From Isoetes taiwanensis (taxonomy: Eukaryota > Streptophyta > Lycopodiopsida > Isoetales > Isoetaceae), in contig JAJEKV010000052.1 of the NCBI GenBank assembly GCA_021234155.1, positions 6,743,358 to 6,807,357 on the forward strand: DNA of 64,000 nt, in the 5' to 3' direction. Below the pieces are notes generated by a model that worked only from the letters and a program-made list of their open reading frames with translations, made no database searches and was not told the DNA's origin. The position numbers were made by a program, and so were the translations under genes. Of this stretch, positions 28,238 through 57,388 are shown piece after piece. The stretch's first letter is position 1. Every line of letters begins with the position of its first letter.

Positions 28238-28606
28238 CAATGTTGTCCCGTACGTGATACGTTCCGTACGTTTCGGACGTATTTTTTGAAAAAATACGTA
28301 TTTTATACAATACGTTCTTAAAGTGCTTAAAATACGTTTTTTAAAAAAATTGAAAAAAAGCTTAAATATAACAAATTATGCAATATAAACACAAACAGAC
28401 TGTTGGAAAGTTGGTTAGCATGTTTGTTTGCTATCTGGGAGGCCCAGGTTCGAATCCTACTGGGTGCAGATTGAGTCTGTTTTGAGAAAACTGTGTCTGT
28501 TTTTTTGAAAAAAGCATTAAGCGTATTTTTTAAAAAATACGTGTACCATACGGTACGGGAGGGTACGTATGCATTTTTAAAAAATACGCGTATTTGAACA
28601 ACACTG
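28238..28606 (+). mobile_element. hAT-like MITE, 369 bp, with internal tRNA-like segment
   Basis: The ends CAATGTTGT and ACAACACTG form the short hAT-style terminal inverted repeat (CARTGTTGT). The flanks are agacagac (28230-28237) and ggacagac (28607-28614), a 7-of-8 match to an 8-bp target-site duplication, as hAT elements make. Inside, subterminal zones repeat ttttttaaaaaatacg words in both orientations. At about 28405-28475 a B-box-like ggttcgaatcctac with an upstream ggttagcatg A-box-like word suggests a captured or inserted tRNA-derived segment. Confidence 0.7.
28405..28475 (+). other. tRNA-like (pol III A/B box) segment inside the MITE
   Basis: ttggttagcatg (A box-like, about 28411) and ggttcgaatcc (perfect B box consensus, about 28448) are spaced about 36 bp apart, as in tRNA genes. 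The flanking stems do not pair into a clean acceptor arm, so this is not called a tRNA gene. It is more likely a tRNA relic or SINE head. Confidence 0.5.
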
Positions 28607-29118
28607 GGACAGACCCAGGAGCCTCCTGCCATGCCCAATTCGTCCATGTAGCAGGGGCTGTTGCCTTGGAGCGGGGCTCCCCTGCAGATCACTTGTATGT
28701 TCAGAGTGTTTTGAGAGCACGCTTTAGATCTCCCAAGGCTATCAATGAAGCTATCAAGAGAGACTTCAACTGTCTATGTAAGCCAACAGGCATGGTTTTG
28801 GTCTGTAAGGCGCTCAGGAACACGAGGCTCCACTGCTTTGAATGGATGGTGGGCTACTGTATGAAGGATATTGGCAAGGTGCATTATTCATGTCATCTTC
28901 ATAATGTGAGCGATTCCATGATACAAAAGGGCAAAGATCTGTACTTGCAATGGGGTGCTGGAGATACTAAGGGCCTCTGTATTCTTGACAATCGTAACAG
29001 CCTGAATAAGGCAGCACATTTCATTTTCTATCATGGGGGACGTCGTGCCACACCGAGCCTCATCTTTACCTTGGCTAGAACAATCAGGAGCAGCAAGTAC
29101 ACCCTACCCAACAGCTAG
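28607..29118 (+). CDS. Unrecognised protein remnant with replication-protein-like look
   Basis: An open frame across 28594-29118 carries, after the MITE border, SPKAINEAIKRDFNCLCKPT, HCFEWMVGYCMKDIGKVHYS and GKDLYLQWGAGDTKGLCILD, then a C-terminal FTLARTIRSSKYTLPNS. The patterned GYCMKD-GK-HY and NVS words, with a compact end, suggest a real conserved protein, probably from a mobile element. I cannot name the family. There is no credible start codon of its own, since the first 4 codons lie in the MITE. A second frame at 29248-29433 (ERNGPGRCRYWDDSDPADET) may be its continuation. Confidence 0.4.
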
Positions 29119-33712: not shown

Positions 33713-33850
33713 ATTCTTAACAAACATGTGGTGATCGTCATTTTCAAAGGGTCTTTGACAATTGTATTTTTTTTAGCAAATACACAACTGTATTTGCTTT
33801 TTATTTATTTAAAATGCAATATACTAACATTATTTTCAGGACAACGAACT

Positions 33851-35350
33851 ATGGCGATGGGGGAACGGGTCGACGTAGTGATTTTTGGAGCCTCGGGTTT
33901 CACAGGTAAATATGTACTTCGTGAATTCCTCAAGTTTAACCAAGTTCAAATCGCGATCGCAGGTCGCAGTGAATCCAAACTTGTAGAAACCCTAAAATGG
34001 GCCTCCAAATCAGCATCTCCACCTCAAATTCCCATTTTTCAAGCGGATATAAACAAACCAGATTCCCTTGCTAGGATTTGCTCTGCCACTCGTCTTCTGG
34101 TAAGTTGTGTTGGCCCTTTCAGACTCTATGGCGAGCCTGTGGTTAAGGCTTGTGTGGAGGCAGGGATTGATTATTTGGACATTACTGGGGAGCCTGAGTT
34201 TATGGAAAGAATGGAAGCTGCGTATCATTCCAAGGCTTTAGAAAATGGTTCCCTGGTTGTTTCTGCTTGTGGATATGATAGTATACCTGCGGAGCTGGGT
34301 TTAATCTTCAACAGCAGGCAATGGATTCCTCCATCTGTGCCCAACAGTGTGGATTCTTACTTGGTGCTACATTCTTCTGGAAGAATACGAGGCAACGTTG
34401 GGACTTACGAGTCAGCTGTGCTAGGAATTGCCAGTGCAAGAGAGCTACAAAAACTACGTGCATCTCGGCCCAGACGTCCCAGGTTACAGGTGAAATGGAA
34501 CCCGCAAGTATTTGGGCTTTTAAATTATTTTAGGAATGTTGGTTAATTTGTCGTGCAGTTCTAGTAAAAGATACTATCCATCTATCTATAATGTGCATGA
34601 TGTTTTATCCTTTACATTATAGTTGAGCACAAACTTATCAATGTGGATTAAACAATGCAGGTTCCTGGTCCTGGTCCAAAGAAACTTTCACTAGTACATT
34701 GGGAAGAGAATTCTGGGACATGGGCTTTAAAACTGCCAAGTGCAGATGCCATTGTAGTTCGAAGAACCATGGCAACTATGGCAGCATATCCACAGGGGCT
34801 TCCAGCACAAGAAGACGAAGAGAAAGAAGATGCAAAATTAAAAAGACAGAAAGCATGGGAAACTTTAAAACCGGTTCATTTTGGGGTTTTTATATCTCTG
34901 AAGAAACTTTGGCATGTTGTTGCCTATATCATTTTTGGTGCCTTCTTCTTGCTGATGGCAAATTTCAAGCTTGGAAGAGATCTTTTAGTTCGGTACCCCG
35001 AATTTTTTACAGCTGGAGTGTTTTCCAAGGATGGACCTTCTGAGGAGGAAGTAAAGAATGCATCTTTTTCTATGTGGTTTGTAGGAAATGGATTTAGTGA
35101 TTCTAGCAAGATTCAAGCTGGGAAGAAGCCAGACCAGCAGATTGTGACAAGAATAACAGGACCAGAGATTGGATATGTAACAACTCCAATAGTTCTTGTA
35201 CAGGCTGCTCTTGTGGTTCTTACTTCCAGAAAGAGTCTTCCTAAAGGTGGGGTCCTAACTCCTGGTGCCGTTTTTGGCATTACTGATTTGCAGGAGAGGC
35301 TGCAAAAGAATGGAATTTCATTTGATGTTGTTAGCATCAAGTCTATCTGA
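33851..35350 (+). CDS. Saccharopine dehydrogenase-like oxidoreductase (SCCPDH type)
   Basis: Two exons, 33851-34489 and 34661-35350, join in phase (tacag/gtgaaa donor, atgcag acceptor) to give 442 residues. This matches the plant SCCPDH-like protein such as Arabidopsis At5g39410. The N-terminal Rossmann fold has DVVIFGASGFTGKYV (GxxGxxG) and later NKPDSLARICSATRLLVSCV and GPFRLYGEPVVKACVEAGID with YLDITGE, the family signatures. A hydrophobic segment at about residues 290-312 (VVAYIIFGAFFLLMA) fits a membrane or lipid-droplet anchor known for the family. The start MAMGERVD is preceded by an acceptor-like attttcag, so a 5' UTR intron is possible. The reading frame is intact. The reaction catalysed is not established; members are not true saccharopine dehydrogenases. 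Confidence 0.92.
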
Positions 35351-44000: not shown

Positions 44001-44893
44001 AGAAGATAGGTTTCTTACCCCTTTAGAGGGCAGCCCTTCATCAATACACCGTCTACTTTCAGAAGGTGGTCACTATGGATGATGCTCATCTCCCTAGCCC
44101 GGCTTATACCGTGGCAATGGAGCCACAACACCTCACACCACGAACTCCCAGAGTCCCCCACGACTGATGGGATTACTCTGGATGGGATTAGTCTCCCAAA
44201 GACTAACCAGGAAGCCTTCCTCTTGATTCTTTCCTAAATAATCGAATAGCCTTTGCAACACAAAGGCCAATGGATTATCTCCCAGAGATAATTCTTTTGA
44301 TGCAAGCTCACTCTTGCAATCAGTATTGCATACTGCAATCAAATGCAATTCACGCTTTTGTATTCCAAATACAAGTGAATCTTTTGCAATTACTTGCAAG
44401 CAATTAGCCCGGATTGCTTCTGTTATCAAGCCACCCCCAAGGTGCTCCAGAGACCAAAACTGTGCTAAAAAAGGTCGGATTGGGCTGGAGAATACCAAAG
44501 CCTCATTGGCTGATCTGTAACAGAGATAAAATAGCAATTTTGAAGCCTTTCCAATTTCGTGGATCCTTCCAAATCGCCTCAGACAGCTTAAATAGGTCTG
44601 ATTTCCTCTGCTACATGCTTTTCGATGCAATTCTGTCCACTCCCAGGTGGTCTCCATGCCCTGGCAGGTGGATCGGCACCTAAGGGCGTCCAACCAGCCG
44701 TGTATCAGGGAAATTAGAAAAGCTCCAAGCTTTTCTTAGCTAATGTTTATTCAATAAACATTAAAAGTTGTGCCCCTAGGGCGAACTTTGCTAGCCCCAG
44801 AATGTCCCCATAGCCCGATTACGAGTTTATGGTCCATCGCATAGCCACTATGCCTGGCATGCTATCGACGGTACCTCCATGCTTATGGATATC
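44000..44893 (-). mobile_element. Continuation of the 3' LTR of the older - strand chromovirus
   Basis: Before insertion of the 44.9-57.4-kb element this DNA joined 57384 directly. On the - strand the LTR would start at 57434 (TGTTACATGTGC, right after a purine tract), run to 57389, and continue from 44893 downwards. Within it are a ctatttaagctg TATA-like word (about 44590) and an ATG-less 186-codon frame that is not a gene. The far LTR end was not located, so 44000 is a nominal limit. Confidence 0.5.
44889..44893 (+). repeat. 5' target-site duplication ATATC
   Basis: ATATC here and at 57384-57388 flank the + strand chromovirus exactly outside its TGTGACG...CGTCACA ends. Confidence 0.95.
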
Positions 44894-46514
44894 TGTGACG
44901 TTCCAAGTATTTATACGGTATAAGTATAAATATGTTGACACGTCACCAAGGATACATACGCCACATGGGGTATGGGAACCTAGGTGGTTCACTTAAAAAG
45001 GATTAAATTAGCTATGCTAATTTAATTATTGACAATAATAACCTATAATTAAGGAACTAATATTTAAAAACCATAATTAAGCTAATTATGGTTTGGGAAG
45101 GCGCCACGTGGCCACCCTCGATTGGCTAGCATGATAATGCTAATTGGGGTCAATAGGGTGGATCACCACCCCCATACCAGCCACAACTCACCTTGAGCGT
45201 TGGAGCCACCCTTGTGACCGAAATGAAGCCACCTTGAGCAATTGGACGCCACCCTTCTCACACAAGTGGAACACCAAGATCAAGAAGATGGAGATCCCCA
45301 ATGACAATGGGTCGTCGAAAAACATGTGGGTGGCTAGTGTAGTTGTGAATTCTAGGATAAGCTCTGCTGGGCACCTGTTTGGGTTGTTGGTCTATTCTCT
45401 CTGTGGTTTACTCGTAGGAACTAACCCTTGATTGTAAAGGTAGGTTCTCTATATATTTCGATTCCGGTTCTCGCTTGTAATGGATGGATTGGTGGTTGTT
45501 AGCCTAGTGTTACCTCGAAATGGGGATTAAGGGGGTAGAGACCTCGGGAGGCTATTTATTGTAGTATGCTCCTAGATAGAGCCCCCGTAGATATCCCGTT
45601 AAATGCGGCTCGTGCACAAGAGCCCACCGGGTCATAGATGCTATGGACCGGCTTAGCACCAGATAAGGAACACAAGTGGTGAAGTGGTTGGCGGGTCCCG
45701 CACTAACATAAAAGGCTCCAGGACTCCTATAGTGAGCTAGGCGATAGCCGGGCCACGTAGAGGGCCGGGTATGGGTCCGACACTCGGGTGGGAAGGTGTG
45801 ATCCGTGATGGAGCACCTTGCACTTTGAGTAGATTTAGGGCGCAGTAAGCCTGCACGGATGCGGGGTCGCCGATGCGGCACGTATTCTCTAGCTCGCCCA
45901 TGGAACCACCGCGGATTCCGAAGGGGACGCTTCCCCGACCCGCCTCATCGGACGGGACTTCATGAACCCCGGAGTAGGCTTAGCAGGGTGATGCCTCAAG
46001 CCTACGTCTCCGGAAGGCTATAGCGACACCATAGCGTGAATTGACCCATCTGCAAAGTGTGCACAGGAGGGGCGGATGGAGTGGACAACCCTAGCCAATG
46101 TTCTATGCCAGCCAACGCCATGTCAAGATTCGGGTCCGGCCGATCTCTTGAGGCCTAGCCATCAGTCGATCCTCACTAGAGTCTGAGCCGGGGTAGAACC
46201 ATGGGGTTGGGGTGTTTTCTTAGGTTTAGATGCATATTCTTTGCCGTTGGTATTTGGATGGATATGCCACCCTTCGTGGTGGTTATTTATATGTGATTTA
46301 TGCTGTGTGCTAACCCTTGTATTCACGCCTGCGACGTAGGAGCCCACCGGGGCGTGGGCGAATGACCCCTTAGGTGTCCTTCTTTCGGGCATCCCATTAT
46401 AGATGGCCCGGAATAGACGGAGGGAGCCTCGCCATGGCGAAGTTGGTCGCCATGGGAGGAGAAAGTCCCCTGTATGTATACCGGCCGGGGTCGATATGTT
46501 CGGGGAGTCGCCGG
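44894..46514 (+). repeat. 5' LTR of the + chromovirus
   Basis: It starts TGTGACGTTCCAAGTATTTA and is collinear with 55751-57383. The end is worn: where the 3' LTR ends gggagcgtcaca, this copy reads gggagtcgccgg before the primer site. Many differences between the LTRs are CCG versus CTG or CG versus TG, as expected from deamination of methylated cytosine, plus small indels. Open frames inside are not genes. Confidence 0.9.
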
Positions 46515-46527
46515 TGGTATCAGAGCC
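46515..46527 (+). promoter_or_regulatory. Primer-binding site (initiator Met tRNA)
   Basis: tggtatcagagcc directly follows the 5' LTR. It is complementary to the 3' end of plant initiator tRNA-Met, the standard primer of Ty3/gypsy elements. Confidence 0.9.
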
Positions 46528-47080
46528 GTGATTTCGGTTACTCGAAATCATAGCACTGACCAAACCCTAACTCGCTAGTTCGGTAGTTAGGAGAGAGAAT
46601 TAAGCAAGAGTGATTGTTTAAGTCTTTCATGTTTGAATTGGTGCTAGGTTAAGGTAATAGACTGTAATTTCTAAGGAAGTCTAGGCTGCCTGGAGGACCC
46701 AAGTTTCGAGGAGCCATAACTTTTTGTAGGTAGCTCGGATGAAGGCGAAAACGGCTCCAATGGATCGGGCACCTCTCAAATACCCTAGGGGGCACGTCTC
46801 CCGAGGCAAAACGGATAACGGGCCGCCGAAAAACAAAAAGGGGCGCCGAGGTATCCGAGGGCGTTTCTTTTCGAAAATAAAACGCGTATAAACACGTCGG
46901 CGTCTCTGATACTTGGCCGCACAGATTTTTTATACGCGCCTGTTTGAAAATTTTTAAAAAAAAAAATATATTTTTTAAATTTTAATAAAAAGTCAAAAGT
47001 TAAAATTTGAATTTTGAAGTGTCTTTTCGGGCGTGTGTTTCTTTTGAGCGCCTTTTTCCGCCATATAGCCCGGGACCTAA
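46528..47080 (+). other. Leader of the chromovirus, no ORF
   Basis: This is the untranslated leader between the primer site and the first extra ORF. It includes an A/T-only stretch at 46945-47000 (ttttaaaaaaaaaaatatat words). The 202-codon frame on the opposite strand has no protein character. Confidence 0.5.
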
Positions 47081-47105
47081 GCTTCGCGATCCGCCATAGC
47101 CGACC

Positions 47106-48546
47106 TTGACGCCTTCCTTGCACCTGCCCTACACCCCGGTGCCCTCGATTACCCCTTCGCGCCGTCCCGCCTTGCTTGAGCGCCTCCTTTTTCCTTGTCC
47201 CCTGTTTGTTCCCTACCAAGTACGACATGCCGCGCTTCAAGCCGACCAGATCCAAGAAACCAATGTATATCGGTTGTTTCTTCGCCTTAGTCGAAGCATC
47301 CGGGCCGAGGAAGACCCTATAATAGATACCATTCTTAACCTTCTTGTCAAACACTTTGTCGAGGGCCGACGAGTCCCCTACCCTATCTTCCACTTCAACG
47401 AGCGCTTCCTCCTCAAGTTGAATGAAGCCGGTCAGGATTACACTCTCGTGGAGCAGCGGACCATGCTTGGGCTGTGGTTAAGTTTTATCCTCGCCAGACC
47501 GGATGACGACCGGGCAGAGCTTAGTCGGAATGAAGCCCGTGAGGATCATGCATCTTTGCGAGAGTGGAAGACTTACACCGAGATAGCCGGTGCTCCACCG
47601 CATATATAAGAATGGAACGTTTTTATTATTTGGGGAAAGGTCGTATACTTACGTACCGGGAATACTTTAATCTCCCTACCTTCTCTTGGAATGAAGATCT
47701 TAACAGCTTTATCTTTGAGAATGTCCCGCCAAGGTTTAGTCAAGGCCACCCGAACTGCGGGGAGGACATATGAACCGGCCACCGATATCATACCGAGATT
47801 GCCCCTGCATTTGGGCGTTTGGAGAGAGAGGCCAGGGCTGAAGAACGAGAGCGGCTCCTAAAGGAAGGCGAAGACTCCCATGGCCAGCAAAGTGAGCACG
47901 AGCAGGAGGAGCAGCCAGGCCATCAGCAGGAGGAGCAGCGGCAGAATTTTGATGATAGACAGCAGGACCTAGGTGCGGCTCAGAACGTTGTGTCCCAGAC
48001 AAACCCTGTTGACATGGACCCATCGGCAAACCCACAGCAATCGACCGGGCCGGGTAACCGGAGACTGAAAAGGACCAAATCTAGACCGGTTCGGGGTGGG
48101 GTGCACTACAAGACCCGGACCGAATAGATGCCGCTGACGCCAAAAGAAGACATCGCTCGTAGAAGGGAGTTGATCGTAGAGCGCACAAAGCATCCTTCGA
48201 CAGGAGGTAAATCCATTCCGTCGCTCAAGGCGACCCTTAAGCCACGGAAGCCCCACAGGTTCCGACCTGGCACGGTAGCTCTTCGGGAGATACGCAAGTA
48301 TCAGAAGACTACCGAGCCATTGATCCGCCGGCTTCCTTTCCAAATGGACTGTATGAGATCGCTCAAAAATTCAAGACCGACTTGCGGTTTCAAGCCTTTG
48401 CGGTCCTTGCATTACAAGAGGCTGCCGAGGCGTACCTGATTGAGCTTTTGAGTGACGCCAACTTGTGCGCCATACATGCGAAGAGGGTCACTATTATGCC
48501 CAAGGACCTTCACCGGCATTTAAGGATCCGAGGGGAATTTAGGTGA
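47106..48546 (+). pseudogene. Extra ORF1: unknown N-terminal part, acidic linker, histone H3-like C-terminus
   Basis: One degenerate coding region in successive frames. 47106-47609 includes NLLVKHFVEGRRVPYPIFHF and FLLKLNEAGQDYTLVEQRTM. After a frame change near 47600 comes RMERFYYLGKGRILTYREYF with FENVPPRF. A TGA at 47771 is followed in the same frame by an acidic, Gln/Glu-rich coiled stretch (REARAEERERLLKEGED, EQEEQPGHQQEEQ) and a basic RRLKRTKSRPVRGG. Then TAG at 48125 leads in the same frame into the H3-like domain (48128-48546). The stops look like single C-to-T changes (CGA to TGA, CAG to TAG). The first part is not a family I recognise. The whole would be a protein of roughly 480 residues. 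The start is unclear because no good ATG lies at the beginning. Confidence 0.7.
48128..48546 (+). pseudogene. Histone H3-like domain within the retrotransposon
   Basis: From 48182 the + strand reads a shortened H3 tail ([10 protein letters not shown]), then [20 protein letters not shown] and IRRLPFQ (the alpha-N helix and loop of H3). After a frame change at about 48344 it reads [49 protein letters not shown] and RIRGEF before TGA at 48544. All H3 secondary-structure elements are in order, with strong identity to canonical plant H3 rather than CENH3 in alpha-N/loop 1. The tail keeps RTK and STGGK but the K9 region is reduced, the K27 (ARKS) segment is missing, and the K36 position reads Arg. 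No introns. It is fused in frame (apart from a TAG) to the acidic ORF1 linker and lies between the LTRs, so it is an element-borne retro-copy of a host H3 gene. Confidence 0.9.
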
Positions 48547-48557
48547 TGACACAACCG

Positions 48558-48596
48558 TTTTTTTTTTTTTTTTTTCTCAAAAAAAAAAAAAAAAAA
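48558..48596. repeat. T18/A18 perfect inverted repeat
   Basis: Eighteen T (48558-48575), CTC, then eighteen A (48579-48596), 11 bases after the H3-like stop codon. It would form a perfect AU hairpin in RNA. It may be a fossil poly(A) junction from the H3 capture event, or a homopolymer assembly artefact. Confidence 0.85.
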
Positions 48597-48808
48597 TTTG
48601 TAACTTATCCATGTACTAGTCCCATTTTTGGGGTTGTGAATATAAAAACATTTTTTTTTTTGGAAATATAATATTAAGTAAATAAAAATTTTAATAATAA
48701 TTTTGGGAAACGTGCCAAAAAGTATAAAACCCCTTTTTGGCCATTAGGGTTTCATTCTTCCTTCTAGTTCCAGCGCCTTCTTCCCCTTCCTGTGCGCCTT
48801 CACTCCTC

Positions 48809-50200
48809 ATGGCTCGCCCAACCCTTCAGCAGTGGTATGTAGACGGAGAGCATTGGGACCCTGCGGTTCCCTTTGATCTTCTTCACCCCTACCCCGCTCC
48901 CGCCAGGTAGATCTTATCTCCAACATGCAGCCCACCCACATTATTACGCCTTCCTTCGGGGTTCTATGGAGAGGAGATTGTGCCTGCATGCGTTGGTAAT
49001 GATGACGATGAGCAGCTTTACCTCGACTTCCACACCTTACACCAGATGTTAGGGGGTGATGATCATGCCCGTAACGTCATCAAGGGCATCAGACGGCGAG
49101 GGACTGACCTCCCTATTGCCACAATAGATCGGGAAACTTGTTTTGAGGCCCGATTTGCACTGGCCATCATTATGGACCAGTACATAGAGGATGAGGAGAT
49201 CCCTGCCGAGCGTTCTTCTACACCTCTACCTCCTGACCCAGAAGATGACGAAGTCGTTGATGAGCAGGATTTTGTGAGATGGAAGGAGCTTGCCACAGAA
49301 GCTCCTGCCAGCAGGCAGCAGGCCCTAAAACTTGAAGGGTTAAACCTTCTCCCTACAGTACTCCTGAATGATCAAGAGTACCTGATCCTTGACGATATTA
49401 TGTGGGCGTACCATGTTCTTACTGGGGTCCGCCGCAGGAAAGTAGAGGTTCTCTATGATCTTGCGGAATATTGCCAAGATGACTTCATCGACTTCACTAC
49501 TCCAGTGGTGCAACCTACACAGGTAGAGAGCCTATTGGCATATCGGCCCGAGGAACAAGAGCCCGTTGAGACTCTTCTGTCGCTTCGCCAGTACTTGCTA
49601 GCTGAAACCCCCCAGCCTCCGGAAGAGCAATTTGCGGCCCCGACACGGTCTCTCCTTCGAGATCCGCCTCTGCAAATCACTATGGGCGAGGGGGATCAAG
49701 ACGAGGAAGACCTTTGGGACACCAAGGTCAGCCTTAAGGATGAGAGAGAAGAAGAAGACGAAGGGAAGCTCCCCATCGACTTGGAGAAGGAAGCTGAGAC
49801 CTCCACCGACCCTCAAGTTAGGGCAATGGGCAACCATATGGCCCGATTCTTTCTCTCAGCTTTCCGCCAAGGAGAGGTGCTGTTCTTCTCCGAGAATTTA
49901 GGCCCATTTTCTGAAGCTTCTTGGTGGGCGCTCCGAGCCATATCTACTTCAGCGGGCCATAAGAAGATTGATTATCGTGTCACCACTATTACTCTGGTCC
50001 GTAGAGATTTGGCTATAGCAGCGTTGGGAGACGTGGCGGGCTGTACTAGCATGCGCCTCCTTGTCGCGGCACCTTTGGCTACCTGTCTACCACCTGAGGC
50101 AGCAGCTCAAGCCGCCCTCTCTGCTAGTCCCAGCGCCACTTTGATGCGTTATCGTCCACCTCCTCAGCCAATGGATGAAGATGAGGGATTCAGCTCCTAA
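48809..50200 (+). pseudogene. Extra ORF2: unknown acidic protein of the chromovirus
   Basis: An ATG at 48809 (MARPTLQQWYVDGEHWDPAV) opens a frame that is closed by one TAG at 48908 and then stays open in the same frame to TAA at 50198-50200, about 463 codons. After the TAG come FYGEEIVPACVGNDDDEQLY, LHQMLGGDDHARNVIKGIRR, an acidic middle (EDDEVVDEQDF) and DEEDLWDTKVSLKDEREEED. The C-terminal folded part has MARFFLSAFRQGEVLFFSEN and LAIAALGDVAGCTSMRLLVA. The gene is preceded by a ttagggtttcattcttcc leader. I recognise no family and no zinc knuckle or protease motif. It is the best preserved of the extra ORFs and is placed between the H3-like ORF and gag-pol. A CAG-to-TAG change at 48908 would explain the stop. 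Confidence 0.75.
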
Positions 50201-50398
50201 ATTATTGTGTTATGAATTTTGCCTTTGAAATCCTTGTTGTTTAAAATATGGTTATTACTCGTGATGTGATTTCTCCTTATTGTATCAAGTCCAATACATA
50301 ATGCCAATACAACTTTTTTTTGAATAAGCCTCTTCCATGACAAGTTATTAAGCCTCCTGGAAATGTTAGTATTATATACTCATTCCGCCCTTTTGCAG

Positions 50399-50859
50399 AA
50401 GAAACGCTCGCGGAGTACGAAGATAGGATAACATCCCAGATAAGGAGAGATGAACAGGGACCTCCACAACAGGACTATGGGGAACGATACAACGAGTATC
50501 CTGAACGGGCAGTTGACGATGAGATAGCGGAGCTTAGGGTGCCGGAACAACCTTATGATCCTGACAAGGGGATGGAAATAGTTACTCTTCTTCGAGAACG
50601 TGCTTACGATGATCTGAAATGGACTCTTTCCCGTACTTGGGATTATTGGAATATGACCCCACATGAGGCTTTTGAGGATGCTAATGATCATCTCTGGCAA
50701 ATCTTCTACGCACTGCGAAGGCTCTTCAACCTTCTTATTATTAGCCCCACTTGGGATTATCAACCCGTTATTATCCAGGCTTGGGCACGTTACAAGCTCG
50801 TCAGAGCTGTGCGTGAGAGTGTGCGCTATGCCGTCATGTATCCCTACGCAAACCCTTAA
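50399..50859 (+). CDS. Extra ORF3 (possible spliced exon) of the chromovirus
   Basis: An acceptor-like cgcccttttgcag ends at 50398. From there the frame reads AEETLAEYEDRITSQIRRDE, an acidic linker, then LKWTLSRTWDYWNMTPHEAF, HLWQIFYALRRLFNLLIISP and YKLVRAVRESVRYAVMYPYA to TAA 50857-50859. That is 153 codons with no ATG near the start, so it is probably an exon joined to ORF2 or to the leader by splicing. It is mostly helical, Trp/Tyr-rich, of unknown family. Confidence 0.5.
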
Positions 50860-51093
50860 GCCGCATTTTCCAGTTTTGTGTGTTCCTATGCTTCACTATG
50901 ACTAGGAAAATGGCCTGTATCAGGCCCATGTATGTATTATATAACTATAAGTCATAATTACTGTCAGTATCAAGCTCTTGGATGTAACCGTTACTTCACT
51001 TGTAATTAAAATTTTTCCGTGGGTTTTTGCGTGTTCACTTTGTTCTCGACACGACTTAAAAATGACCTTGTATGACACTTATTGTCGCTGTAA
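50860..51093 (+). other. Spacer before gag with possible splice acceptor
   Basis: No frame. AT-rich DNA ends in ttatgtttaatatag at 51124, which reads as a splice acceptor just inside the gag ORF. Gag could therefore begin from the ATG at 51094 or be spliced at 51125. Confidence 0.4.
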
Positions 51094-53775
51094 ATGTTCT
51101 TATATCATCTTATGTTTAATATAGACGGGGCACGCAACGCCGCTTGGCAGCCACCCTCAAATGCAAGTCGATTAACACCAGAACAAGAATTGATGCTGAT
51201 GAAAAGACAGTTAGGCGAATTACAGGCCTACGTCTTGCATGCTAACCCACCACAGCATGTACAACAGGATGCACCGGAGTTACCTCCGTTGCCGCCTAGT
51301 CCACCTGCACAGCAGCCGTCCCCACCACGAACCAGTCCTGTACCCGTGCGAAAGAGGTCCCACTCTAAACGCCGACGGAGCTCCTCCAGGGACAATGCCA
51401 CCTCTTCAAAATCTGCCACTTCAGTGTCAACTGAATCATCTGCATCATCTGGCGACCATACGAAACGCCGAGATAAGGAGTACCGCAAGACGGTTGATAC
51501 GGCCATAACTAGCATATGGAAGAATCGCAAGTTGGCCCAGTTTGATGGGAAGTCTAGAGGCGGATTAAATGCCGAATCCTGGTTAGATGAAATGAAGGAG
51601 TTCGGAAGGTCTTATGGCATGGCAGAAAGGGATACCGGAAAGGTTGCCACCACCAACCTTACCGGAGCTGCCCGTATATGGTGGAAGGGCTATGCCCGAG
51701 CCAAACACTTGGACAGGAGCAGATGCAAATTCAGAAAGTTTGCCAAGGCCTTCAAGTCGCATTATGTGCCCCGTGCACACAAATGCCAACAGATCCAAAC
51801 TTTTTACAGGTTGGAGCAGAAAAGTATGTCCGTACAGGCATACACGGATGAGTATATGCGCCTAAGGCTGTATGTACCCGGTATGAATGAGAAAAGAGCA
51901 GTGGAGGGTTATATTGAGGGATTGGCACCCTCGATCAAACGGATGGTTAAAGCCATAGATCCGAAATCAGTTGCAGAGGCCGAGGCTAAAGCGTTGAGCC
52001 TCGAGGAGGACATACCCAGGGCTCAGTATTCGCGCCCTGCTACTTACTCGCAGCCACGGCCATCCACACCGTACAAACCCCGCTCTCCAAGCCCGGGGCC
52101 CTCTCAGCAGAGCACTTACGCTCGCCAGGAGAAGAAAGTCGCTTTTAGCACGCCAGAAAAGCAGAACAATGCTGGCAAGGACGTTCGGAACCTCTTACAG
52201 TCCATTCCTAAAGAGGCCAGAGAACAGCTCCGCCGCGACAAGGCATGCTACAGGTGTATGAGGCCTGGGCACTTCATGCAAAATTGCCCATATGTTACCC
52301 AGACTGCCCAGTTGGCTATGGCCGACCTCGACTGGGATGAGCTTGAGGCAACACTACCGGCAGAGGAGGACGCTCCCGACTACATTCATGGTGCGTCTCA
52401 TATCCTTGCAGCTATAGAAACTGGCAATGCTGAAAGTCAGCCTGCTGTCATTTCTACCATAGGCCAGGTAGACAGTAAGCCTTTCATCATTCTTATGGAC
52501 ACGGGAAGTACCCATAATTTTGCTTCCCCTAGAATGGCCCAGGTCCTACAATTGGAAACCCTAAGGTCACGACCGAGGCCTGTCACTTTAGCCAGTGGTA
52601 AGGTTAGGCATACTCATGGTCGTCGCATCAATCTAAAGATGCAGTTGCCAGGCGCACCAGTTGCTATGGGCGCCGAGCTAATGGATATTGGCAAATATGA
52701 CCTCATTGTTGGGATGGAATTCTTGGCATCTGCAAAAGCCAACATAGACTGCGAGAAGAGAGAAGTTACCTTCAACGCGGCAAATGGAGCCCGCGTAACT
52801 ATAAAAGGTGAACCATTCAACCCTATCATGCAGTCTATGTCCATCCGACAGTTAGATAGAGCTATAAGCAAGCAAAAGCTCCTCTGCCTTATCAGACTTG
52901 CTTCCATTGAGTCAGACCCTAAACAGAAGCAAGTAATTGACACCTTACCGGAGGGGATCGCCTACCTTATCCGACAATTTTGTGATCTCTTCCCAGACGA
53001 AATCCAGAAGCTTCCTCCTTTTAGAGGGGTAGAATGTGAGATAGCTTTAGAGCCAGGTACTAAGCCTACCAGCAAGGCCCCGTACCGTATGAGTCTCCCA
53101 GAGTTGGCAGAGCTTAAAAAGCAACTTCAAGAGCTACTAAACCTAGGTTTTATTCGACCTAGCGTCTCGCCCTTTGGCGCCCCTATTCTTTTTGTAAAGA
53201 AAAAGGACGGCTCCTTGAGAATGTGTATTGATTATCGGCAACTCAACAAGCATACCATCAAGAATCGCTATGCTTTGCCAAGGGCAGATGATCTAATGGA
53301 CCAGTTGCAAGGGGCCAAGTATTTTTCGAAGATTGATCTTCGCTCCGGATATCATCAGATAAGGATTAAAGAGGAGGACATTCATAAATCTGCTTTTTGC
53401 ACTAGATATGGGCATTATGAGTTTACCGTTATGCCTTTCGGATTAACTAATGCCCCCACAACGTTTATGCGGTTAATGAACGATGTTTTCCGACAATACT
53501 TGGATGATTTTGTTGTCATTTTCTTTGACGACATTCTCATCTACAGTAAGACTCTAGAAGAGCATGAGAAACATCTTAAATTGGCCCTACAAAAGTTAAG
53601 ATGTCATCAGCTTTTTGCCAAGTTCTCTAAGTGCAAGTTTGCCACTCCAAAGGTTGACTATTTGGGCCATATCATTTCAAGCAATGGGAATTGCTCTGAG
53701 ATCCAAAGAAAAATAGAGGTAAGGGAATGGCCTATTCGAAAAATGTCTCCGAGGTCCGAAGTTTCTTGGGATTAG
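51094..53775 (+). CDS. gag-pol: Gag-protease-reverse transcriptase polyprotein, first part
   Basis: The frame of 893 codons covers a disordered Pro/Ser-rich start, the Ty3 capsid domain (about residues 150-310, with [15 protein letters not shown] and [20 protein letters not shown]), and a CCHC zinc knuckle ([14 protein letters not shown], about residue 384). An aspartic protease follows (MDTGSTHNF, about residue 467) and then reverse transcriptase from [20 protein letters not shown] through [20 protein letters not shown] to [13 protein letters not shown]. The catalytic box is FFDD, within the F/Y-x-D-D class. The polyprotein drives capsid assembly, processing and cDNA synthesis. The frame ends at 53775 because of a frame change near 53735-53750; reading continues in the next ORF. 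Confidence 0.93.
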
Positions 53776-55853
53776 CAGGATATTACCGAAAATTTGTAAA
53801 GGATTTTGCAAAGATTGCAGTCCCTCTTACAAATCTTACCAAGCATGAGAAGGTAAAGGATTGGATGGAGCACTGGAAGACTAAGGTTCAGGGAAGTTTC
53901 CAGCAGCTTAAAGATGCCTTAACCTCAGCACCCGTTCTCACGTTGCCCGATCCTGATAAGGATAAACTAGTGGCCACAGATGCCAGTAAAATTGCCACTG
54001 GTGGGGTTCTAATGCAGGAGGGGAGGGTTATTGCTTATGATTCAAAGAAGATGAATGAGACAGAACAACGATATCCTACCCATGACCAGGAATTGCTGGC
54101 TGTAGTTCGCGCTTTGCGAATATGGAGACACTACCTCCTTGGTAGAAGATTCCAGTTGGACACGGATCACCAAAGTCTCCGATATTTAACCACCCAACCC
54201 AATCTCAACCTCCGGCAGAGGAGATGGATGGAATTTCTTGAGGAATATGATTTTGAGATCATGTATAAGCCTGGGAAGCACAATGTGGTTGCGGATGCAT
54301 TATCACGCCATCCCTTGGTAACCCGGACTCATTGTAATGCAATTTCGACACTCACAAGTGAGTTTGGCAAACAGATAGAACAGACTTTGGCCACGGATCC
54401 TGAGTTCTGTGACATTTGGAGTAGTCTCAATAAGGAGGCACACACAGATAGAGAGCGTGACGCTTTCCGGTCATATAAGAAAGAGGGCAATTTGTTGTAT
54501 CACAAGGACAAGTTGTGTGTACCTCATACTTCCGGGGTGCGTAAGTTAATCCTCCATGACACGCACAACAGCCCTATAGCTGGACATGCGGGTTTTATGA
54601 AGACCTACTTTAAGATCCGCTCCAGTTATTTTTGGCCTTCAATGAAGAAGGACATTGCCAGGTACATCAAGCAGTGTCAAGTATGTCAGCAGACCAAGGC
54701 AGAACAATTAAGGACTCCAGGAGAATTGCAACCTTTGGATGTGCCCAACGCTAAGTGGGAAGTGATAACCATGGATTTCATTGTGGGCCTTCCACGTACT
54801 CTTCGTGGATATGATGCGTTAATGGTAGTGGTCGACAAATTGTCGAAAATGGCTCATTTCTTGCCATGTCGTACCACGGACACCGCCTTTGATACTGCTC
54901 TGCTTTTTGCAAAGGAGATCTTCAGATTGCACGGAATGCCACGGGTAATTGTATCTGACAGGGATCCCAAATTTGTAAGTGCATTTTGGAAAGATTTCTT
55001 CACCACCATCCAGACCAAGCTTGCTATGAGTACCGCATATCATCCTCAGACAGATGGTCAGACAGAGCGTACCAATCGTATCATAGAGGATATGCTACGA
55101 AGTTATGTGTGGAGTAAGCAATCCCAATGGGCTGACTATATTTATCTAGTAGAGTTTGCCTATAACAGTATGAAACAGGAGTCTTCCAGAATGTCTCCTT
55201 TCATGATAAATTATGGTTATCAATGCCTTACTCCTGACACATGGCACAACCCCGTGTCGAAAGTGGAGGTTTCTCAACAACTCCTCCTGGAGATGCAAGC
55301 TTTGGTCGAGGAAGTACGTGGTTACTTGTTAGCTGCACGCAGTCGTCAGAAAAGTGTAGCGGATAAACACAGAACCCCACGAATCTTCCAAATGGGCGAA
55401 TCAGTTTGGCTTAAAATCAAGGTAAAACAAGCCAAGCTTAAAATTGGTAACTGCAAGAAGTTAGCGCCCAGATGGGCAGGACCATTCAAAATCACCGAGC
55501 GTATTGGAGAACAGGCATATCGCTTGGATCTGCCACCCCGTTTGAAGATCCACAAGGTCTTCCACGTAAGTCTTCTGAAACAGCACACCCCTGATCCAGA
55601 GGAGGTTTTGGAAACCCCAACCCTCCTCGAAATGACAGAGGAGCAGCTCGAGATAGTGCCTGAAGCTCTCCTTGACCGGGCTTATAAACAGACTCGGAGG
55701 ACGCAAAAGTTGCAATACCTGGTCAAGTGGAAGCACTTGCCGGTGGAGGATGTGACGTTCCAAGTATTTATACGGTATAAGTATAAATATGTTGACACGT
55801 CACCAAGGATACATACGCCACATGGGGTATGGGAACCTAGGTGGTTCACTTAA
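53727..55853 (+). CDS. pol: Polyprotein second part: RNase H, integrase, chromodomain
   Basis: It overlaps the preceding frame by one frame change. Connection and RNase H start at [20 protein letters not shown], with RNase H residues in [18 protein letters not shown] and TDHQSLRYL, ending VADALSRHP. Integrase has the HHCC zinc domain ([15 protein letters not shown] to CQVCQQTK) and the DDE core ([44 protein letters not shown]). The [18 protein letters not shown] module precedes a C-terminal chromodomain beginning [14 protein letters not shown]. The codon for V in PVEDV is already in the 3' LTR, so the last chromodomain strands (usually TWE...) are replaced by LTR-coded residues up to the stop at 55853. 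Confidence 0.93.
55738..55750 (+). promoter_or_regulatory. Polypurine-like tract inside the chromodomain codons
   Basis: ttgccggtggagga directly precedes the 3' LTR start at 55751. ggtggagga is the only purine run there, so the plus-strand primer is probably embedded in coding sequence for the chromodomain. It is shorter than typical tracts. Confidence 0.45.
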
Positions 55854-57383
55854 AAAGGATTAAATTAGCTATGCTAATTTAATTATTGACAATAATAACC
55901 TATAATTAAGGAACTAATATTTAAAAACCATAATTAAGCTAATTATGGTTTGGGAAGGCGCCACGTGGCCACCCTCGATTGGCTAGCATGATAATGCTAA
56001 TTGGGGTCAATAGGGTGGATCACCACCCCCATACCAGCCACAACTCACCTTGAGCAGTGGAGCACCACCCTTGTGACCAGAGCTGAGCGCCACCTTGAGC
56101 AATTGGACGCCACCCTTCTCACACAAGTGGAACACCAAGATCAAGAAGATGGAGATCCCCAATGACAATGGGTCGAGCCGAAACACAGGTGGGTGGCTAG
56201 TGTAGTTGTGAATTCTAGGATAAGCGCCCCTGTTGGGCACCTGTTTGGGTTGTTGGTCTATTCTCTCTGTGTTTACTCGTAGGAACTAACCCTTGATTGT
56301 AAAGGTAGGTTCTCTATATATTTCGATTCTGGTTCTGCTTGTAATGGATGGATTGGTGGTTGTTAGCCTAGTGTTACTCTGGAAATGGGGGATTAAGGGG
56401 GGTAGAGACCTCAGAGGCTATTTATTGTAGTATGCTCCTAGATAGAGCCCTGTATTATCCCGTTAAATGCGGCCTGTGCACAAGAGCCTACCGGGTCATA
56501 GATGCTATGGACTGGCTTAGCACCAGATAAGGAACACAGTGGTGAAGTGGTTGGCGGGGTCCTGCACGAACATAAAAGGCTCCTGGGACTCCTATAGTGA
56601 GCTAGGCCTGATAGCCGGTCACGTAGAGGGCCGGGTATGGGTCTGACACTCCCTGGGTGGGAAGGTGTGATCCGTATGGAGCACCTTGCACTTTGAGTAG
56701 ATTTAGGGCGAGTAAGTCGGGTACGGATGCGGGGGTCGCTGATGCGGCACGTATTCTCTAGCTCGCCCATGGAACCACTGTGATTCTGGAAGGGGACGCT
56801 TCCCTGACCTGCCTCATCGGACGGGACTTCATGAACCCCGGAGTAGGCTTAGCAGGGTGATGCCTCAAGCCTACGTCTCCGGAAGGCTATAGCGACACCA
56901 TAGCGTGAATTGACCCATCTGCAAAGTGTACACAGGAGGGGCGGATGGAGTGGACAACCCTAGCCAATGTTCTATGCCAGCCAACGCCATGTCAAGATTC
57001 GGTCTGCTGATCTCTTGAGGCCTAGCCGTCAGTCGATCCTCACTAGAGTCTGAGCCGGGGTAGAACCATGGGGTTGGGGTGTTTTCTTAGGTTTAGATGC
57101 ATATTCTTTGCCGTTGGTATTTGGATGGATATGCCACCCTTCGTGGTGGTTATTTATATGTGATTTATGCTGTGTGCTAACCCTTGTATTCACGCTTCCG
57201 CGACGTAGGAGCCCCACTGAAGGCGTGGGCCGAATGACCCCTTCGTGTCCTTCTTTCGGGCATCCCATTATAGATGACCCGGAATAGACGGAGGGCCCTG
57301 CTCATGGCGAGTTGGTCGCCATGGGAGGGGAAAGTCCCCGTATGTATACGGCCGGGGGTCGTATATGTTCAGGGAGCGTCACA
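55751..57383 (+). repeat. 3' LTR of the + chromovirus
   Basis: It starts tgtgacgttccaagtattta, ends gggagcgtcaca and has TGTGACG/CGTCACA terminal inversion. It is followed by target duplication ATATC at 57384-57388. It is 1633 bp long against 1621 for the 5' LTR, with many scattered transitions and 1-3-base indels. Confidence 0.93.
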
Positions 57384-57388
57384 ATATC
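57384..57388 (+). repeat. 3' target-site duplication ATATC
   Basis: Matches 44889-44893 exactly. Confidence 0.95.

Follow-up and report, generated by a model that had tools for sequence, protein, structure and literature searches.

Retrotransposons in the genome of Isoetes taiwanensis seem to produce their own version of a chromatin building block. Upstream of gag, a group of chromoviruses carries a reading frame that joins a domain of no known family to the core of histone H3, and, judged by its copies and by how they differ, this frame is a conserved retrotransposon gene and not a private retrocopy. It is probable that what selection has kept is a gene for an H3 with a replaced tail, whose product would act by pairing with host H4 in nucleosomes or in H3-H4 complexes. 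Retrotransposon silencing acts largely through marks on the H3 tail, and a retrotransposon family conserving a tail-less H3 would directly attack, or use, the substrate of host silencing.

The copy from which the work set out occupies positions 44894-57383 of the window, i.e., of the whole stretch of 64,000 nucleotides that was analysed, and is a 12.5-kb Ty3/gypsy chromovirus, an LTR retrotransposon, with the following parts (P0114 is a public protein introduced below).

44889..44893, no strand: target-site duplication ATATC, left, a perfect pair with the right copy
44894..46513, plus strand: 5′ LTR, starting TGTGACG, from self-BLAST against the 3′ LTR
46515..46526, plus strand: primer-binding site TGGTATCAGAGC, exact match
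47227..47773, plus strand: ORF1 N-domain, starting MPRFK, from tblastn with P0114; broken by frame changes and a stop at 47771
47774..48229, plus strand: ORF1 linker, 16 of 49 aligned residues identical to P0114; stop at 48125 in the window copy
48230..48543, plus strand: ORF1 H3 core, residues 36-135, from Pfam Histone; one frame change between 48343 and 48355
48809..50859, plus strand: ORF2, a second extra gene of no known family, from its open stretches; broken in the window copy, with a presumed start codon at 48809
51094..55750, plus strand: gag, protease, RT, RNase H, and integrase with the start of a chromodomain, from Pfam
55751..57383, plus strand: 3′ LTR, ending CGTCACA, from self-BLAST against the 5′ LTR
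57384..57388, no strand: target-site duplication ATATC, right, a perfect pair with the left copy

The ATATC duplication around the LTRs, reported in a preliminary description of this DNA, is thus confirmed at both ends. The LTRs are 94.15% identical by self-BLAST (K2P 0.033 over 1598 aligned sites), and the primer-binding site, which we take to be the complement of the 3′ end of initiator-Met tRNA, is the sole match in the 64-kb window at up to one mismatch. Pfam recognizes Retrotrans_gag, RVP_2, RVT_1, RT_RNaseH, Integrase_H2C2, rve, SH3_Tf2-1 and Chromo within 51094..55750, rve and Chromo being slightly under the cut-off in this copy and Chromo partial (21.1 bits against 25.1), and the order gag-protease-RT-RNase H-integrase holds here and in seven of eight further copies. 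At 55656-55757 the chromodomain passes directly into the 3′ LTR; all seven other copies having both parts show some 720-740 bp extra between INT and LTR, and in two other copies tested the chromodomain is complete (38.1 and 37.8 bits). The truncation is a private deletion of the window copy.

Are all the breaks in the window copy biological? The 96 differing columns of its LTR pair are tightly clustered, with a longest identical run of 305 columns, a length reached in one of 20,000 shuffles where random placing gave a mean longest run of 84 (the probability is 0.0044 when clusters are treated as single events), and the LTR alignment has 44 gap columns in 35 openings. Clustered differences with many small gaps resemble consensus error, and so the breaks are perhaps not all biological; the frame changes and two stops of ORF1 are damage specific to this copy, or in part errors of the consensus. 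The assembly is described as nanopore-based and as comprising 1658.30 Mb in 204 scaffolds and 909 contigs (PMC8566536).

On the plus strand of 48128-48546 all the H3 motifs that had been picked out there are present, with a single frame change at H3 residues 68-73. The accompanying statement, that essentially the whole H3 fold lies as a domain between LTR and gag, stands for the position and for a core from about residue 36; however, the canonical tail is replaced by another domain and the H3 is not free-standing, being the end of a longer ORF1 that begins at about 47227. Against a Pfam cut-off of 26.4 bits, the two frames of 48230-48543 match Histone at 36.8 and 78.7 bits (E 5.5e-9 and 5.6e-22), their best PDB H3 chains give 2.5e-14 and 8.2e-25, and Pfam, PDB chains and the tree discussed below agree in placing the sequence among H3 histone-fold cores. 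When proteins were searched with the ORF1-H3 frame (the best 120 of 2403 were examined), the top matches read were tandem or extended ordinary H3s, and among the matches listed only P0114, at rank 114 of the 120, clearly matched the N-domain. This ENA protein of 373 aa, from a 2,953-bp contig, matches first the window N-domain (E 5e-12) and then the H3 core (E 2e-36), as they are ordered in ORF1, with 76 of 96 aligned residues identical in the core; upstream, its residues 34-109 match the window frames at 34% and 132-178 at 30% (joint E 5e-12), and the N-domain match scores 52.8 bits against at most 25.4 in 500 shuffles. Since P0114 matches the upstream frames and a linker that continues into H3, the H3 forms the C-terminal part of a protein with two domains, whose N-domain, broken in the window copy, is open in other copies. 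Across the family that protein has about 370-440 aa and consists of a tip resembling that of the H3 tail (M-x-x-x-K), an N-domain of about 200 aa, a basic linker and the H3 core.

A search with the N-domain, leaving out H3, found nothing among 512 candidates; a profile including P0114 recovered, of 5389 candidates, P0114 and P0121 only, both of them public ENA proteins, and no relatives were confirmed in IMG/VR, GTDB contigs or phages. The N-domain of P0114 and the window pieces has no meaningful Pfam match, and for nine other members the best Pfam family was CENP-Q (E 0.0087, in two of the nine) and the best PDB chain reached E 0.27; the CENP-Q likeness was taken as chance. AlphaFold models of P0114 are poor (pLDDT 38 and 52). 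Two further ENA proteins of 201 aa, P0097 and P0100, have another insert between an MTRTK start and the H3 core, seemingly a different tail-replaced H3.

Could the H3 be the product of an assembly join, or a host H3 retrogene privately inserted in one copy? The frame breaks and the nanopore basis of the assembly lend themselves to such an explanation, and the preliminary description had named both as cases that would undo its proposal, but the genome makes them extremely improbable. The search covered 1,658,258,908 bases in 1110 contigs, and every copy read was found through an H3 or fusion-protein query. With the 419-bp H3 segment there were 40 scored matches from 1010 candidates: besides the window, 39 genomic places match the greater part of it at 86-93%, and these with the window are the 40 copies read for the window subfamily. 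Seven other loci that were compared align with the element over some 3.4 kb around H3, and the target-site duplication is intact. A host H3 retrocopy with its poly-A had also been considered, for just 3′ of the H3 stop codon, at 48558-48596, there is a T18-CTC-A18 run; it is a perfect inverted repeat, with no target duplication beyond the A-runs, and the candidate was rejected. Between this repeat and ORF2 lies a TATAAAA at about 48723, and the two together may perhaps give ORF2 a promoter of its own.

Most of the 40 copies are broken. Eleven show a single frame, free of stops, that includes the N-domain markers and the two halves of H3; in eight the alignment is one stretch of 425 codons or more without a stop; and in four the frame is 442 aa long, beginning MPRFKLT and ending IRGDFR or IRGEFR, with H3 from about residue 343. 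For the eight open copies the surroundings were fetched in separate pieces: the 5′ LTR is present in seven, ORF2-gag-RT-INT in seven and the 3′ LTR in seven, the exceptions being L019, with no LTR upstream, and L028, with neither ORF2-gag-RT-INT nor 3′ LTR downstream. One open copy has deletions in ORF2 and integrase. In the six open copies whose LTR pairs are measurable, K2P is 0.017-0.051.

The fusion extends well beyond the window subfamily. A genome search with P0114, in which 110 of 9724 candidates were scored, gave at least 216 matches, and the 30 loci fetched were the best-scoring ones, so that they are no random sample; 29 of them have one stop-free frame across both H3 halves, 24 are full-length fusions, and several diverged subfamilies are represented. 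Upstream of the fusion ORF, the primer-binding site occurs with up to one mismatch in 20 of 29 loci, where shuffles lead one to expect 0.003 per flank; downstream, 27 of 29 have an ORF2 homologue. In 15 of 18 readable loci the bases preceding the primer-binding site end CGTCACAG, the LTR end (CGTCACA) also present in the window 3′ LTR; adjacency of gag-pol to the fusion was read in the window subfamily. The start pentamers of 25 fusions are MAITK (15), MANTK (4), MARTK (2) and, once each, MPRFK, MANAK, MAHTK and MAPTK, and in an alignment of 10 fusions (nine loci and P0114) H3 lysine 4, residue 5 counting Met, is invariant. As ordinary H3 begins MARTK, the N-domain may sit within the former H3 tail.

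That selection has kept the fusion protein intact is indicated by the substitutions between open copies (Nei-Gojobori dN/dS, with 5-95% ranges from codon bootstraps). In the eight open copies of the window subfamily dN/dS is 0.07 (0.04-0.12) for the H3 core, 0.18 for the N-domain and 0.31 for the middle; four of these copies give 0.05 for H3 and 0.10 for the N-domain. For 22 open copies of the main subfamily the values are 0.042 (0.019-0.069), 0.093 and 0.22. Of the element's other genes, stop-free copies of the window subfamily have 0.11 for gag, 0.07 for pro and 0.05 for RT (four copies each), and 0.12 for INT and 0.13 for ORF2 (three copies each). The frames were chosen as open, a choice that removes stops and not missense changes. 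When the decayed copies were included, dN/dS was 0.42 for H3 (40 copies) in a range of 0.42-0.58, with many codons from wrong-frame alignments; for gag, ORF2 and INT it was 0.40, 0.48 and 0.29. These values were deemed unreliable. ORF2 itself, open at 48911-50200 and 50341-50859 of the window, has no Pfam family match; its 3′ part gives a dN/dS of 0.17 in six copies.

Is the H3 then just a passenger, a captured host fragment amplified with the element and functionless? There is a precedent among fungi, Pyrenophora and its relatives having hAT DNA transposons with a captured histone H3, H3L (PMC3538342, PMC6710886); in P. fijiensis all the captured H3 copies are reported as inactivated (PMC6710886), and full-length, expressed H3L copies are reported for P. 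tritici-repentis (PMC3538342). The window copy is broken too, as are most of its subfamily. However, an H3-core dN/dS of 0.04-0.07 in open copies, the proportion of full-length open frames among the 30 best-scoring loci and the sharing of the fusion by several diverged subfamilies leave a functionless passenger as highly unlikely.

As to origin, an H3 phylogeny had been called for and was run: the fusion H3s (23 distinct rows) stand on one side of a branch with support 100/98, against 32 other H3 rows, and a smaller tree has three fusion rows against 32 others at 98/89, the bootstrap being unsettled in both. The residues agree with the trees. The window, P0114 and P0121 share F87 and A107, which none of 68 other H3s has, and L124 is in one of the 68; in 32 further open copies A107 and L124 occur in all and F87 in 31. 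By overall identity the window H3 stands no closer to P0114 than to ordinary H3s (76 of 96 identical in each case), and so kinship rests on the N-domain, the common residues and the tree. An ordinary-H3 query, for which 150 of 9022 candidates were scored, found 15 genes at 96-98%, each full-length and in a single frame, some of which, on unplaced contigs, may be allelic, and, beyond a gap in identity, 135 divergent H3 places at 71-86%, fusion status having been read for part of the 135. The ordinary genes are at most 98% identical to the query, a seed-plant H3. Given the single clade, the diagnostic residues and the gap, the simplest reading is one capture with long co-evolution: an H3 ancestor would have been taken up once and have diversified with the element. 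Taken together, the open copies, the selection, the H3 clade, and the primer-binding site, LTR end and ORF2 common to the subfamilies point to a conserved retrotransposon gene, and the proposal of the preliminary description, that a chromovirus had acquired an H3 as part of itself, is borne out by the many copies, the open frames, the purifying selection and the clade.

How does this compare with what is known? Like plant chromoviruses, the Isoetes element has LTRs, a tRNA-Met-type primer-binding site, the order gag-pro-RT-RH-INT and a C-terminal chromodomain; unlike them it carries two additional genes in the interval from LTR to gag, the H3 fusion being one. A Selaginella chromovirus is described as a single gag-pol ORF (PMC3350952). 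Among the matches listed in the open-access literature there was no chromovirus or other LTR retrotransposon with a histone gene, and the word ‘histone’ has no occurrence in the main text of two Isoetes genome papers. The nearest precedent is the fungal hAT with captured H3, which is likewise a transposable element that has multiplied an H3-like gene into tens or hundreds of copies, but is a DNA transposon with TIRs, whereas the Isoetes element has LTR retrotransposon anatomy, its H3 is joined to a new domain, and purifying selection is measured between diverged copies. The Isoetes family also shows an LTR retrotransposon that has stably captured a histone and keeps it as its own gene, together with an N-domain that matches no known family and a second extra gene, likewise of no known family, adjoining. 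As in plant H3.1 and H3.3, residues 36-135 are in the same register and nucleosome-contact residues are kept; the fusions differ in having the N-domain and linker for the canonical tail, in F87, L90, A107 and L124, and in changes at 77, 86, 102 and 105. CENH3 also has an H3 core with a divergent N-terminus, and in that respect the fusion is like it, but CENH3 has a longer loop 1, and the window, P0114 and P0121 keep the canonical register 36-135, which would speak against a CENH3 (the comparison set was one without a known plant CENH3).

What might such a protein do? ORF1 would, as the 5′-most reading frame of the LTR transcript, be translated from it; the H3 core would pair with host H4 and enter nucleosomes or H3-H4 complexes; the N-domain, standing where the tail with K9 and K27 would be, would bind element proteins or block tail-based silencing, and as an outcome either the chromatin of new or active copies would withstand repression or the integration complex would be brought to chromatin. 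A role at the level of nucleosomes or chaperones seems the most likely mechanism, and within it we would put anti-silencing somewhat above tethering. In favour are 22 H3 positions that we take to be nucleosomal DNA contacts or part of the H3-H3′/H4 interface: in 25 fusions 20 are invariant and two have one exception each (one C110R, one V117I), and the eight window-subfamily copies have all 22 unchanged, with two cells unread. The canonical tail, ARTKQTARKSTGGK..., is absent, TKQTA being in none of the 25 fusions, though ARKS is in the linker before the H3 core in five of them, so that some fusions still have the K9/K27 context. A further point against is L60P in the H3 core, which all eight open copies of the window subfamily have. 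Near-invariant contacts with the canonical tail gone favour entry into nucleosomes with a replaced tail.

The H3 fold could, alternatively, be kept purely as a protein-interaction domain. In one such version, rather unlikely though not without attractions, the core would be a chromatin or chaperone handle that binds H4, ASF1/CAF-1-type chaperones or nucleosome surfaces and uses the N-domain to tether the pre-integration complex to replicating chromatin, with no stable nucleosomes; the histone-interface residues are kept, the element also has an integrase chromodomain, complete elsewhere as noted, and the altered sites of the core cluster at 86-90 and 101-107. But the arginines that we take to be DNA contacts are as invariant as the interface residues, and a mere handle would have no need of them. 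More improbable again is that the fusion condenses or packages element cDNA or RNA in virus-like particles, outside the nucleus. A basic linker with a net charge of +10 to +16 (four proteins computed), a DNA-binding fold and the position upstream of gag in the same element would suit that purpose; yet gag already has a zinc knuckle, albeit under Pfam's cut-off, and H3 requires H4 to fold and bind DNA.

An H3 conserved without its tail would supply a natural separation-of-function H3. A full extension can be put forward only tentatively, with the balance somewhat against it: that LTR retrotransposons of a diverse clade make a dedicated, nucleosomal, tail-replaced H3 variant, that the chromatin of these elements is thereby blind to H3-tail silencing, or their integration steered, and that in one genome transposon-made H3 genes far outnumber host-made ones, an arms race over chromatin in which the nucleosome itself would be the weapon. 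Elsewhere in the window, 28594-29115 is an ORF with a Pfam Replitron_HUH match (E 2.1e-14), and 33728-35350 is a probable host gene, saccharopine dehydrogenase-like in its first 272 aa (E 7.3e-16), followed by an ORF without a Pfam match.
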